From Campylobacteraceae bacterium (GTDB lineage: Bacteria > Campylobacterota > Campylobacteria > Campylobacterales > Sulfurovaceae), in NCBI GenBank assembly GCA_027065385.1, contig JAMOOP010000077.1, positions 1 through 42,804 of the forward strand: a DNA stretch of 42,804 nucleotides. Direction: 5' to 3'. A model generated the notes under the pieces. It did no database searches. It worked only from the letters and a program-made list of their open reading frames with translations, and was not told where the DNA came from. Made by a program: the position numbers and the translations under genes. How positions within the stretch are numbered: position 1 is the first letter of the stretch; each line of letters starts with the position of its first letter. Below are positions 28,664-38,727 of this stretch, in pieces.

Positions 28664-29569
28664 TTACAAACCTTCTTTAATTTTTAGTAAGTTATAACCT
28701 CTTACATTAGCATATTCATACGGTAGAGATGAAAAAACAACATTAGATGGGTTCTTGCTCTTATTTAGAAAATAAGCTCCTCCTCCACTAAATATAACAG
28801 CAGTAGCTGAACGTAAAAGATCTACTCCTTTATTTTTCATCTCATCAAGAATATATTCAGCATAATCCTCTTTAGATTCATCTATCTCATCACTTAAATC
28901 TATTTTCTCTCCATAATGCATAATATACCCATTAATAAATGTATCTTTAGCAATCTGCTCAGTAGCATCAAAATTAAATCTTTTCTTTAGCTTTGTTTGT
29001 AGCTCAGTAATAATCTCATTAGCACCTTTATTAGTTGCATAAGAAAGATCTTGTCTAGGTTTACCATCTTCAAATACTAAAAAGTCAAAAGTGTTGTAAC
29101 CTATGTCAGCAACACATACAAGACCATCTTTTTTACCAACATAATCTAAATATATCCCTTGACCCTGTGCCATAAGATGAATTTTAGGAGAAATAATTGA
29201 ATCATTAACATTAATAGTTCTCAATGTATCAATAAATATATCTTTCTCTTTCCAATTTAAAATAGATAATCCAATAATAATTTCAAGAGGTTCATTTTTA
29301 TCTAATCCAGATAACTCTATTGCATGATAAATCAATAAAGCTCCATACTTGAGTAAAAAGTTAAATCCTCTTGTAGAGATTGCATTGACTAAAGCTCTAT
29401 CTCCAACTCTGTATTTTCTACCTTTAAATAGATAAACATCATCATTGTCACTATCATACTCAACTTGACTCTCTTTACGTTTTTCTATCGCTGAAGCAAA
29501 CTTAAATATTTTATCCCCAACAACAACTTTTGTGTCTCCATAACCTAAATCTATAGATAGTCTTTGCAT
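28664..29569 (-). CDS. parM: ParM/StbA-like actin-type plasmid segregation ATPase
   Basis: A 301-aa actin-fold protein. Phosphate-1 loop DLGYGDTK is at residues 7-14, the phosphate-2 loop VADIGYNTFDF lies near 153-163, and the adenosine motif FSGGGAYFL near 260-268. This matches ParM/Alp-type segregation proteins, which form filaments that push plasmid copies apart. The ATG follows AAGGATT. The ParR-like gene is next in the operon, and the very AT-rich 250 bp upstream could hold the centromere, as in other parMRC loci. Confidence 0.85.
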   Translation of the reverse strand: MQRLSIDLGYGDTKVVVGDKIFKFASAIEKRKESQVEYDSDNDDVYLFKGRKYRVGDRALVNAISTRGFNFLLKYGALLIYHAIELSGLDKNEPLEIIIGLSILNWKEKDIFIDTLRTINVNDSIISPKIHLMAQGQGIYLDYVGKKDGLVCVADIGYNTFDFLVFEDGKPRQDLSYATNKGANEIITELQTKLKKRFNFDATEQIAKDTFINGYIMHYGEKIDLSDEIDESKEDYAEYILDEMKNKGVDLLRSATAVIFSGGGAYFLNKSKNPSNVVFSSLPYEYANVRGYNLLKIKEGL

Positions 29570-29934
29570 TCCAATCCTTATTTATTATCTACATTATACT
29601 TGAAGAATACTTTTAAAGCTTTTAAATATGTATTTATAGAATAGTATGAGTAAATAATTAATAAAATAAGAATTAAAAATTCATAAGAATAATAATATAA
29701 AAATATAAAATAAATATAAGCACTTATTTAAAAGTCTAAAATAGATAAATACAATTATTTTTTAATATATTAAAAATATAAATAGCTCTATTTTACTTTA
29801 TAAAAAGAATCGTTTAAATGTTCTGTATGCTATTATTTCTCTATATGATAAAAAATTTAATGAATCTTATTATTTTCAAATTTTTATTTTATTTATATAT
29901 AATGATTTCTACAATAAATATAAAGGTATTAACT
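29570..29934. other. Very AT-rich region upstream of parM: possible centromere or origin
   Basis: About 365 bases without a supported gene and with very few G or C residues. It contains TAAAATAGATAAATAC near 29746 and TCTATTTTACTTTA at 29787-29800, the latter identical to 3255-3268. In actin-type partition systems the centromere lies upstream of parM, so the place is right, but I cannot identify regular direct repeats. The right end holds the leader of the small gene at 29935. Confidence 0.35.
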
Positions 29935-30153
29935 ATGAAATATACAGTTAAAGTTGAATTAGAAGTAGAGATAGATTTATTTGAAACTGATTATATAGAT
30001 GAAGAGGAACAAGAAGAGCTAAATGATATTATTACAGAAACTCTTTTAGATAATGGGGTAGAGATTACTCAAGAGATTTTCAATGAAATGAAAAAAAGAA
30101 CAAATGTAAGTATTCAAGATGCTTTTACTTTTAATGAACAAACAATGGATTAG
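29935..30153 (+). CDS. Small acidic protein of unknown function
   Basis: A 72-aa very acidic protein (MKYTVKVELEVEIDLFET, DEEEQEELNDIITETLLDNG) with a beta-strand start and helical remainder. ATG 29935 has AAAGGT 7 bases upstream; the longer open frame from 29818 has a hydrophobic, low-complexity start without a site. It lies between the partition operon and the control region of the second replicase. Acidic small proteins near origins may be regulators or DNA mimics, but I have no evidence for either. Confidence 0.5.
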   Translation: MKYTVKVELEVEIDLFETDYIDEEEQEELNDIITETLLDNGVEITQEIFNEMKKRTNVSIQDAFTFNEQTMD

Positions 30154-30197
30154 TTTTTTCTTACTACCATTTTATATTTATTTTATATAAATTTGTG

Positions 30198-30303
30198 TAT
30201 AATTTCAACTAAATAAAGGTGGTTAAACTATAAGGTTTCCCGCTAGATACCTGTGTTGCGATCATCTTTTTAAAAGGGATTTATTTATAAGTTCCTTTTT
30301 TTT
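30198..30303 (+). ncRNA. Probable small RNA upstream of the second replicase
   Basis: A consensus -10 box TATAAT lies at 30198-30203. About 65 bases downstream of the likely start is an intrinsic terminator: AAAAGG (30272-30277), CCTTTT (30294-30299) and a T-run to 30303. The GC content between (GGTTTCCCGCTAGATACCTGTG) is far above its surroundings and there is no open frame, which suggests a structured RNA of about 90-95 nt. Nine bases, CCGCTAGAT at 30240-30248, are exactly complementary to 30440-30448 in the replicase leader, so it may regulate that gene by pairing. Confidence 0.6.
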
Positions 30304-30439
30304 ACTTCAAATTAAAAAAATTTCCTAAAACACTTTTTATATAATAAATTCTTTAAGCAAAAATAGATATAATCTAATCAAGTTATTTTTTACAGTATAT
30401 TTTTTGTTAGAAATATATCAATAAGAGAAGCAACACAAA

Positions 30440-30448
30440 ATCTAGCGG
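30440..30448 (+). promoter_or_regulatory. Replicase leader sequence complementary to the small RNA
   Basis: ATCTAGCGG here is the reverse complement of CCGCTAGAT at 30240-30248. It is a GC-rich island in an AT-rich leader about 50 bases before the leader ORF. It could pair in cis or in trans with the upstream RNA. Confidence 0.45.
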
Positions 30449-30496
30449 TTTTTTATATTTATTCTCTGATAACTAATTAAAAATTGGACAGAGAAA

Positions 30497-30529
30497 ATGA
30501 AAATAGGACAATCGCCTAGCCTTTGCTAG
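30497..30529 (+). CDS. Ten-residue leader ORF overlapping the replicase start
   Basis: ATG 30497 opens a frame encoding MKIGQSPSLC and a TAG stop at 30527-30529. The replicase frame opens only at 30520 and its likely TTG start (30523-30525) overlaps the leader stop (TTGCTAG). The hairpin CTAGC-CTTT-GCTAG (30516-30529) covers both. This resembles the leader-peptide coupling (tap, repY) that sets replicase translation in IncFII- and IncI-type plasmids. The leader site (GGACAGAGAAA) is modest. Confidence 0.55.
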   Translation: MKIGQSPSLC

Positions 30530-31839
30530 ACTTACTAAACAAACCCCAAACACTTAACTTAGAAAACCACAACAATAATCTAATAAACCTCCATAAGTTA
30601 CTGCATAAAAAACTATTTTTAGAAAATATACAATCCTGCCAAACAAAAGAACAATTAGAGTTTTATGTAAAACCAAAAGATAAGAATGAAGCATTACATG
30701 ATAATTTTATAAGATATGGTACTAAACATGCAACATCATTCCTAATAATTGATATAGACAATATCCATACTCCTATAAATCAATATAAACAAGAGGTTCA
30801 ATCGAAACTCGGACTAACACCTAATTGGATTACAAGAACATCCAAAGGCTATCATATTGGTTTTATATTAGAAGATACAGTATACTTATCAGATACAATA
30901 GATCAAGAAAAGCTAGTAATAACTAAAAAAACTATAACTAACATCTTAAATGGAGATATAGCAGGTTCTCATAGATTAATAGGCTATTGGAGAAATCCTC
31001 TTACTCATACATCAATAATTAATACAGATAAGTTATACACAATAGATGAACTATATAAAGTAATATATAATAAACAACTCAATACAGCTGCTATATCAAA
31101 TAAACAAACAAGTGATATTAAAACAACTAAAAATCAAATAGGAAAAATTAACTTAGAAAAAATAAATAAAGATGGTTTCATACAAGGTAATAGAAATAAT
31201 TATCTTTATATAACAACAATAGGAATGTTATACAATGGAAAAATAGAAAATAATCAAGTAGAAGATACACTTATTAATTTAAACAATAAAGAATTACCAC
31301 TAGAAGAGATAAAAAAAATATCTAAGTCAATACAAAAATATAATATAAAAGAAAATACAACTAAAAATGAACCATATATAAAAGGTGAATACTATCAAGA
31401 TTTATGGGATAACAAAATACATAACTATAAAACGAAAGATATAATAGAATTTAGTAGACAAAAAATAGGACAAAAAATTAGTACAGCTAAAATACTTGAA
31501 AAAACTATAGGAAAACTAATAGAAGGATATAAAGTAACATATAGAAATAATGAATTATTTACTAATAAAAATATAATAAAAAATAGTGAAGTAAGTAGAT
31601 CAACAATAAAGAGATATAGAAATGTAAAAAAAATAGAACAAGAGATTAAAATTATAGCATTTAATCAATATATGAAAGAGTTAGTCAAAAAAAAGGGTGT
31701 TAAGGCAGATGAACCCCCTATAAGAGAACTACTAAATTTAGCCTTATCTGAGTTATCTTTTGAGTACGAAAAGACAGGTAAAGTGTTTGCTTTTATGTTT
31801 AATGAAAATGATAGACTTATATTCTATGAAGTTCCCTAA
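30523..31839 (+). CDS. Primase-type plasmid replicase (Replicase + PriCT_1)
   Basis: A 438-aa replication protein of the RepA/ColE2-like replicase group. The primase core has motif I FLIIDIDN (D77, D79), motif II TSKGYHIGFIL (H111) and GSHRLIGYWRNPLTH as motif III region. A PriCT_1 domain follows near 208-270 (GNRNNYLYITTIGMLYNG, then EEIKKISKSIQKY), and the C-terminus is probably DNA-binding (SEVSRSTIKRYRNVKK). These proteins prime and start plasmid replication. The only plausible start is TTG 30523, overlapping the leader ORF stop, so translation is probably coupled. It makes a second replicon besides Rep_3. Confidence 0.85.
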   Translation: MLDLLNKPQTLNLENHNNNLINLHKLLHKKLFLENIQSCQTKEQLEFYVKPKDKNEALHDNFIRYGTKHATSFLIIDIDNIHTPINQYKQEVQSKLGLTPNWITRTSKGYHIGFILEDTVYLSDTIDQEKLVITKKTITNILNGDIAGSHRLIGYWRNPLTHTSIINTDKLYTIDELYKVIYNKQLNTAAISNKQTSDIKTTKNQIGKINLEKINKDGFIQGNRNNYLYITTIGMLYNGKIENNQVEDTLINLNNKELPLEEIKKISKSIQKYNIKENTTKNEPYIKGEYYQDLWDNKIHNYKTKDIIEFSRQKIGQKISTAKILEKTIGKLIEGYKVTYRNNELFTNKNIIKNSEVSRSTIKRYRNVKKIEQEIKIIAFNQYMKELVKKKGVKADEPPIRELLNLALSELSFEYEKTGKVFAFMFNENDRLIFYEVP

Positions 31840-37899: not shown

Positions 37900-38727
37900 G
37901 TGGCTATAAAAAAGAATAAATCAAATAATAATAGAGCTAACAATAGAATAAATAAGATAGTTCAAAGTGTAGGGAAATTAAATGATAAGAATATTATTGA
38001 AGAGATAAACCTTTCAATAATAAAAGAGAATCCTTATCAACCAAGATTAGTTATTGAAGAGGATGATTTACTAACTTTAGTCAATAGCATTAAAGAGAAT
38101 GATCTTCTTCAACCTGTGATAGCTAAAAAGAATCAAGATAATACAATTACATTAATAGCTGGACATAGACGACTAGAAGCCCACAAAAGATTAGGACTTC
38201 AAACAATCAAAGTTATTATTCTTAAAGATATAACAGATAAAGAATTGGCTTCTTACTCTCTTATAGAGAATACTCATAGAAAAGATTTAACATATATAGA
38301 GATAGCGCATCAATATGATAGATTATTAAAAGATAAAGTTTTTAATACGATACAAGATTTAGCTCTTGCTGTTGGACAGGACAAATCACAAGTAGGTAAA
38401 ATTATAAATCTATTAAAACTCTCTGATAAGATAATAGAGGATCTAAGAAAAAATAAAAGTATATCAGATATAAAATCATTAGATACAATCCGAAGAATTA
38501 ATGATCCTAAGATACAAGAGGAACTTTATTTTTGGTATATTAATGAAAATATATCAAGAGATGAGTTAATGGAAAAAGTTACTGATATTTTAAATAGTGA
38601 TAGTGATAAAGAAAAGAGATCATTATATAAAATCAAAAACTCAAAAAACAAGTGTGCAGTAACACTACCAACACTAACAGAAGAACAGATGAAAAAACTT
38701 AATAGGTTTCTTAAAAAACTAGTATAG
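37900..38727 (+). CDS. parB: ParB-family partition protein
   Basis: A 275-aa ParB. The ParB/Srx-like domain shows NPYQPRLVIEEDDLLTLVNSI and LIAGHRRLEAHKRLG (box with the nucleotide-binding GHRR), then SLIENTHRKDLTYIEIA and a helix-turn-helix (TIQDLALAVGQDKSQVGKIINLLKL). The C-terminus is a short dimerisation helix. It starts at GTG 37900 with AAGGAT upstream. ParB binds parS and is usually paired with a ParA ATPase, but I see no parA in the window, so it may be an orphan or a transcription factor-like relative. Confidence 0.88.
   Translation: MAIKKNKSNNNRANNRINKIVQSVGKLNDKNIIEEINLSIIKENPYQPRLVIEEDDLLTLVNSIKENDLLQPVIAKKNQDNTITLIAGHRRLEAHKRLGLQTIKVIILKDITDKELASYSLIENTHRKDLTYIEIAHQYDRLLKDKVFNTIQDLALAVGQDKSQVGKIINLLKLSDKIIEDLRKNKSISDIKSLDTIRRINDPKIQEELYFWYINENISRDELMEKVTDILNSDSDKEKRSLYKIKNSKNKCAVTLPTLTEEQMKKLNRFLKKLV

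Follow-up and report, generated by a model that had tools for sequence, protein, structure and literature searches.

Plasmid antisense control is the textbook case of the countertranscript, in which one sequence supplies the RNA from one strand and the target from the other, so that the two cannot diverge. Copy number in R1 and IncI replicons is controlled by opposite-strand antisense RNAs of this kind, and in IncFII and IncI plasmids leader peptides and regulatory RNAs set the level of the replicase. The locus analyzed here raises the question of whether a plasmid replicase could be governed by an RNA that is encoded separately, on the same strand as the leader it recognizes. It lies in a window of 42,804 nt (the whole stretch of DNA that was analyzed), whose plus strand carries, in this order, a predicted promoter, a structured RNA, a terminator, a second predicted promoter, a leader with a ten-codon ORF and the replicase (Table 1).

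Table 1. Features of the replicase control region, in window coordinates
Feature	Position	Strand	Basis
Candidate -10 of small RNA promoter P1, TATAAT	30198-30203	+	Exact motif 6 nt 5' of predicted RNA
Predicted small RNA, ~95 nt, recognition hairpin and terminator	~30209-30303	+	Fold; counterparts in L263 and L262
Recognition hairpin	30215-30269	+	Fold -14.9 kcal/mol, z -2.8
Predicted pairing core of small RNA, CCGCTAGAT-ACC-TGTGTTGC	30240-30259	+	Duplex energy with own leader
Putative intrinsic terminator of small RNA, 12-bp stem and T8	30272-30303 (hairpin 30272-30299)	+	-9.1 kcal/mol, 8-T tail
Candidate -10 of replicase mRNA (P2), TATAAT	30368-30373	+	Sequence motif, inferred
Predicted leader target, GCAACACA-AA-ATCTAGCGG	30430-30448	+	Pairs with 30240-30259
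Leader hairpin GCGGTT...AATCGC	30445-30515	+	Leader fold -24.1 kcal/mol, z -4.0
Leader ORF, 10 codons, MKIGQSPSLC*	30497-30529	+	Sequence
Start-codon hairpin CTAGC-CTTT-GCTAG around replicase TTG	30516-30529 (arms 30516-30520, 30525-30529)	+	Fold
Replicase, 438 aa, divergent ColE2-Rep-like (PF03090 and PriCT_1)	30523-31839	+	Sub-cut-off Pfam matches and relatives

The replicase and its contig

Both Pfam matches of the replicase are below the cut-off (PF03090, E = 0.0012; PriCT_1, E = 0.0015). Its apparent membership of the PF03090/PriCT_1 (ColE2-Rep-like) proteins follows from its relatives, because it is ~50% identical to L273 (445 aa, on contig L283), which passes the PriCT_1 cut-off, and 27-28% identical to PF03090 members over the cut-off, or over both (27% for a 375-aa relative that exceeds the two). 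TTG 30523-30525 is the sole usual start codon in the N-terminal region, since an in-frame TAG occupies 30517-30519 and no ATG, GTG or TTG occurs between this TTG and the conserved part, and the N-termini of homologues agree with a start at this position.

The contig also encodes a Rep3 initiator, an actin-like (Alp/MreB-like) partition protein and ParB (48-1118; 28664-29569 on the minus strand; 37900-38727), and two replicons, with apparently two partition systems, reside on its 42.8 kb. The plasmid, phage and viral contig collections yielded no close sequence relatives, and a protein scan of the genome_contigs collection for relatives returned none. Among the matches listed from a loose pattern scan of genome contigs, two loci had a possible nearby complement, both unrelated by eye. 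A 73% match on contig C16 consisted of AT-rich sequence outside the pairing sites.

A predicted small RNA gene upstream of the replicase

The initial annotation had proposed that a promoter and a terminator bound an RNA at about 30205-30303, and elements corresponding to each were recovered in nearly the same place. First, the promoter scan overall performed no better than on shuffled sequences, and P1 is assigned by its motif, which has counterparts at the equivalent position in two relatives of the locus (TATAAT in L263 and TACAAT in L262). Second, the predicted RNA folds at -25.0 kcal/mol (z -3.7; one of 500 shuffles was equally low), and an inner AGGU/ACCU stem of its recognition hairpin encloses the loop that bears the first pairing block. 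Third, the putative terminator is AU-rich, with two G-C pairs and one G-U pair in its stem; the generic terminator scan of the window found none, and it overlooked this one because it requires at least three G-C pairs. Its counterparts have energies of -10.7 kcal/mol in L263 and -29.7 kcal/mol in L262. An Rfam search of the window returned no family at the gathering score.

Two minor features adjoin this gene. Directly 5' of it is an ORF for a small acidic protein (29818-30153), with a weak match to phrog_34387 (E = 0.0008) whose function is unassigned. A minus-strand promoter-like site (30394-30421, 10/12) is directed at the small RNA gene and might yield an RNA antisense to it; such minus-strand matches were no commoner than in shuffles.

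The leader and the start of the replicase

It had further been claimed that a ten-codon ORF ends across the TTG start of the replicase, inside a CTAGC/GCTAG hairpin, and all of these elements are present in the sequence, with the leader-ORF stop TAG (30527-30529) overlapping the TTG. A short ORF that stops over the replicase start, together with a start codon held in a hairpin, is the hallmark of leader-peptide-coupled control (R1 tap, IncI repY). The leader hairpin buries both the Shine-Dalgarno (SD) sequence and the ATG of the leader ORF, and the 3' end of the predicted target falls within its base; in the folds of the leader, which cover secondary structure alone, GCGGTT/AATCGC appears as a nested pairing.

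Predicted pairing between the small RNA and the leader

A 9-base complementarity between the RNA and the leader had been noted initially. This block was confirmed, but the pairing proved to be about twice as long, a second block of 8 bp having been overlooked. The first block joins CCGCTAGAT (30240-30248) to ATCTAGCGG (30440-30448) and the second joins TGTGTTGC (30252-30259) to GCAACACA (30430-30437), giving a predicted duplex of 9+8 bp around a 3x2 internal loop (ACC/AA) at -25.8 kcal/mol. None of 20,000 shuffled leaders was as low, a test that used a core chosen post hoc with the match already known, so that the local-alignment figures are fairer: 17 of 5,000 shuffles in a less selected log-odds test, and 124 of 20,000 with a cruder H-bond-weighted score. 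Among 4,276 segments taken from the two strands of the window, the leader was the top non-self partner of the core (runner-up, -20.0 kcal/mol). The RNA and its target are thus two separate sites on one strand, ~170 nt apart, rather than an opposite-strand countertranscript pair.

The minimum free energy structure of the joined RNA and leader region contains these two helices, which would also suit control in cis. Both arms would then lie in one long replicase mRNA with no free small RNA, and leader translation or transcript termination would be set by the two blocks meeting in a long-range stem or through their loops. Against this, a U-tract terminator and then a second promoter-like site separate the arms in the window, in L263 and in L262, which favors action in trans; we therefore consider cis control rather unlikely.

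Two further candidates were rejected. A stem between TCTAGC in the target and GCTAGA at the replicase start was considered as a conserved alternative structure, and it occurs in the window but is absent from L263. Transcription termination at the target (ATCTAGCGGTTTTTT) was also considered, and the U tract is missing in L263.

Compensatory changes in related loci

L263, on a truncated contig, is the nearest replicase relative that has an upstream region. Its replicase belongs to another family, is 51% identical to that of the window over 115 aa, and starts like those of the window and L273. Upstream, on the same strand, are its TATAAT, an RNA with GCCAAAC-ACC-TGCAATAC in the same AGGU...ACCU frame as in the window, and a terminator; the leader target reads GTATTGTA-AA-GTTTGGC, with an internal loop identical to that of the window.

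The pairing register was fixed from the window before L263 was read. In this register all 15 comparable pairs were intact: 7 had both members replaced, 7 were identical to those of the window, 1 was a G-U pair and none was broken. Sliding the partner by 1-3 columns left 25-42% paired. Not one of 20,000 shuffled L263 leaders reached 15 pairs, and 12 of 20,000 were equally low by energy. When L263 was aligned by itself in an untargeted test, the result was not significant (1246 of 5,000); the L263 case depends on the register that the window had predicted. Non-cognate combinations of RNA and leader gave duplexes of -5.3 to -14.2 kcal/mol, versus -18.4 and -25.8 kcal/mol for the cognate ones.

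The surroundings of the target are also similar. The leader ORF begins 49 nt beyond the target in the window and 46 nt beyond it in L263, and the leader-ORF stop of L263 overlaps the replicase start with an identical start-N-TAG geometry, within a hairpin of its own (GCCAC-TTTTT-GTGGT). L263 has GGCGA/TCGCC where the window has GCGGTT/AATCGC, and its leader-ORF start is likewise in a hairpin.

L262 encodes a remote replicase of a third family and has the same gene order in its own letters. The 5' tail of its RNA contains ACCAGTTTGAAA and the loop of the terminator GTTTGTGCC, and its leader carries the complementary blocks TTTCAAACTGGT and GGCACAAAC, with predicted duplexes of -17.8 kcal/mol (0 of 20,000 shuffles) and -14.9 kcal/mol (8 of 20,000). 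The second target is immediately 5' of the leader-ORF ATG, at the ribosome site of this ORF, where a duplex would obstruct initiation directly, a position that points to the leader ORF as the element controlled. The ORF has 23 codons and ends 3 nt before the replicase GTG. Thus, the order P1, RNA, terminator, P2 and leader is common to the window, L263 and L262. The contig of L273 starts 71 nt before its replicase, and a search for its upstream piece did not find one; the part present keeps AGGACAATCGC, a start hairpin (GCTATC-TAACTT-GATAGC) and the overlap of leader-ORF stop and start (TTGA).

Taken as sequence evidence, predicted pairing between the small RNA and the replicase leader is well supported, with covariation drawn from two sequences, the window and L263, the one close relative found with the full region, and with the remote L262 as a further case. 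The compensatory changes in L263 bear out the proposal of a separate same-strand RNA pairing with the leader, unlike the opposite-strand RNAs of IncFII and IncI. Relatives that keep the replicase and lose the complementarity had been named as evidence against it; L263 retains both blocks through compensatory change, a single such instance.

The same comparison bears on two other explanations. The arms form an imperfect inverted repeat of ~20 bp and could act as DNA, for example as binding sites for the replicase or another protein. However, the window and L263 preserve the pairing with different letters, one of the pairs being a G-U that is meaningless in DNA, and the arms are located in a promoter-terminator unit and in a leader, so we give this explanation hardly any credence. 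Alternatively, a conventional opposite-strand countertranscript of the leader could be the real regulator, with the same-strand RNA incidental. Countertranscripts are used by the functionally related ColE2, R1, IncI and Pseudomonas REx-C systems, and weak minus-strand promoter-like matches are present here; however, a search of the minus strand of the leader found no hairpin with a well-placed U tract, and it is the same-strand pair that shows compensatory evolution. This explanation appears very improbable.

A model for control of the replicase

The reading that we consider probable is that a separately encoded, same-strand antisense RNA lowers the replicase by blocking translation of the leader ORF. 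The complementarity, its compensatory upkeep in L263, the start/stop overlap and the individual parts are present in the sequence; we infer that both RNAs are made and meet as separate molecules. The 30209-30303 region would give a short constitutive RNA, and the replicase mRNA would be initiated separately. The hairpin loop of the small RNA and its 3' flank would pair with the leader segment upstream of the ten-codon ORF. Since the TTG has no evident SD sequence and is held in a hairpin, coupling to the overlapping leader ORF is the natural reading, and the replicase start may need a ribosome that, having translated the leader ORF, terminates across the TTG. The amount of small RNA would track plasmid copy number, and leader-bound RNA would stop leader-ORF translation, resulting in less replicase and less replication. 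Copy-control logic and the arrangement in L262 suggest this negative direction.

With regard to the mode of blocking, the predicted unpaired fraction at the leader-ORF start increased only from 0.19 to 0.26 in the window and from 0.18 to 0.23 in L263 when the target was masked in silico, and the TTG was hardly altered. A structural switch is thus not predicted, which leaves occupation of the ribosome landing (standby) region, RNase III cleavage of the double strand, or both, as candidate modes. The same values bear on the converse idea that the small RNA is an activator, whose pairing would free the base of the GCGGTT/AATCGC hairpin and ease leader-ORF or replicase translation. The target does overlap the base of the leader hairpin in the window and L263, but the predicted gain in accessibility is small, one L262 block would cover the ribosome site of the leader ORF, and an activator increasing with copy number would create runaway feedback. 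We regard activation as improbable.

Several observations weigh against this model: read-through from P1 would allow both arms to pair in cis, target masking predicts no switch, the terminator is AU-rich, and nine relatives have a different leader (see below). Hfq was not found in the genome of the window (96% complete), and regulation would probably proceed without it, which fits a strong, self-sufficient duplex.

Comparison with known systems

The predicted system would work like CopA/tap control, yet it is no countertranscript system. As in CopA-CopT-tap-repA of R1/IncFII, a small RNA would pair with the replicase leader 5' of a leader ORF to which replicase translation is coupled; a passage of PMC5304414, citing Blomberg 1992, states that CopA works via the leader peptide tap. 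However, CopA is an opposite-strand RNA with full complementarity, whereas here 17 pairs and an internal loop join two same-strand sites ~170 nt apart. IncI/IncB/IncL-M replicons share the leader-ORF stop that overlaps the replicase start in a hairpin. They use an opposite-strand countertranscript, in contrast with the same-strand RNA of the window, and a loop-to-leader pseudoknot activates their translation; in the window, the secondary-structure folds gave the nested GCGGTT/AATCGC pairing. ColE2 and Pseudomonas RepA/RepJ (REx-C) resemble the window in a PF03090-kind replicase (ColE2, RepA), post-transcriptional control in the 5' leader and, in some, a leader peptide. In those replicons the same stem-loops encode the antisense RNA on one strand and its target on the other, so that the two always match perfectly (PMC5304414); that match is automatic, whereas the match in the window must be kept by co-evolution.

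The features of a trans-encoded antisense RNA such as IstR-1 appear to be present, with a terminator and partial pairing in three loci and a promoter by motif. IstR-1 of the E. coli type I toxin-antitoxin pair IstR-1/tisB is likewise a separately encoded neighbor with ~20 nt of complementarity far 5' of a buried ribosome site. It pairs 5' of the buried ribosome site of tisB and competes with standby ribosomes (PMC4147584), and it is listed as Hfq-independent (PMC5415839). IstR-1 is divergently encoded and represses a toxin, whereas the RNA of the window is in same-strand tandem and its target governs plasmid replication.

A review ties cis-antisense RNAs to plasmids, phages and transposons (PMC5415839), and the literature searched, mostly titles and abstracts, contained no case of a plasmid whose replication is controlled by an RNA encoded in trans or on the same strand. 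On balance, we lean towards a class of plasmid copy control in which the inhibitor is a separate same-strand gene, its match to the leader is kept by co-evolution, and incompatibility may shift by drift of two short sites with the replicase untouched. RNA and target, being two sites, have to co-evolve in specificity, as trans-encoded small RNAs do with their targets, here seemingly without a need for Hfq. This opens the question of how the sensor of copy number and the site it recognizes acquire a new specificity jointly, and hence of how new incompatibility groups originate, and it offers a first way into the control of replication in low-GC plasmids of a group that has been little studied.

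Other leader arrangements among replicase relatives

The layout of RNA and leader is not universal, because nine chromosomal-looking replicase relatives (L009-L014, L274, L279 and L280) carry another leader, with an SD hairpin, and no such RNA was seen in them. Their SD-burying hairpin (GGGTTGCTCC...GGAGTAACC) is in the last ~40 nt before the replicase start, and upstream is a AATACAGTAAGACCATCT box whose role is unassigned.

A different arrangement was observed in five relatives with f16 replicases (L285, L286, L287, L289 and L293). A same-strand loop, GGGAGCC.. or GGGTATC.., is located ~30-190 nt 5' of the replicase start, and its complement is in the loop of an AT-rich hairpin with a T run just before that start; the letters differ among these relatives and the pairing is kept. 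The complementary segment precedes the start by 30-43 nt, with energies of -14.6 to -21.9 kcal/mol, and by eye no terminator separates the arms, which would be in keeping with the cis alternative. The f16 arrangement looks like cis loop-loop or attenuator control and is possibly a one-transcript cousin of the system in the window. Finally, the leaders of L290, L292 and L304 vary except for a conserved short ORF, ATGAAAATTAGGGATTTTTGA (MKIRDF*), which lies ~190 nt 5' of the replicase.
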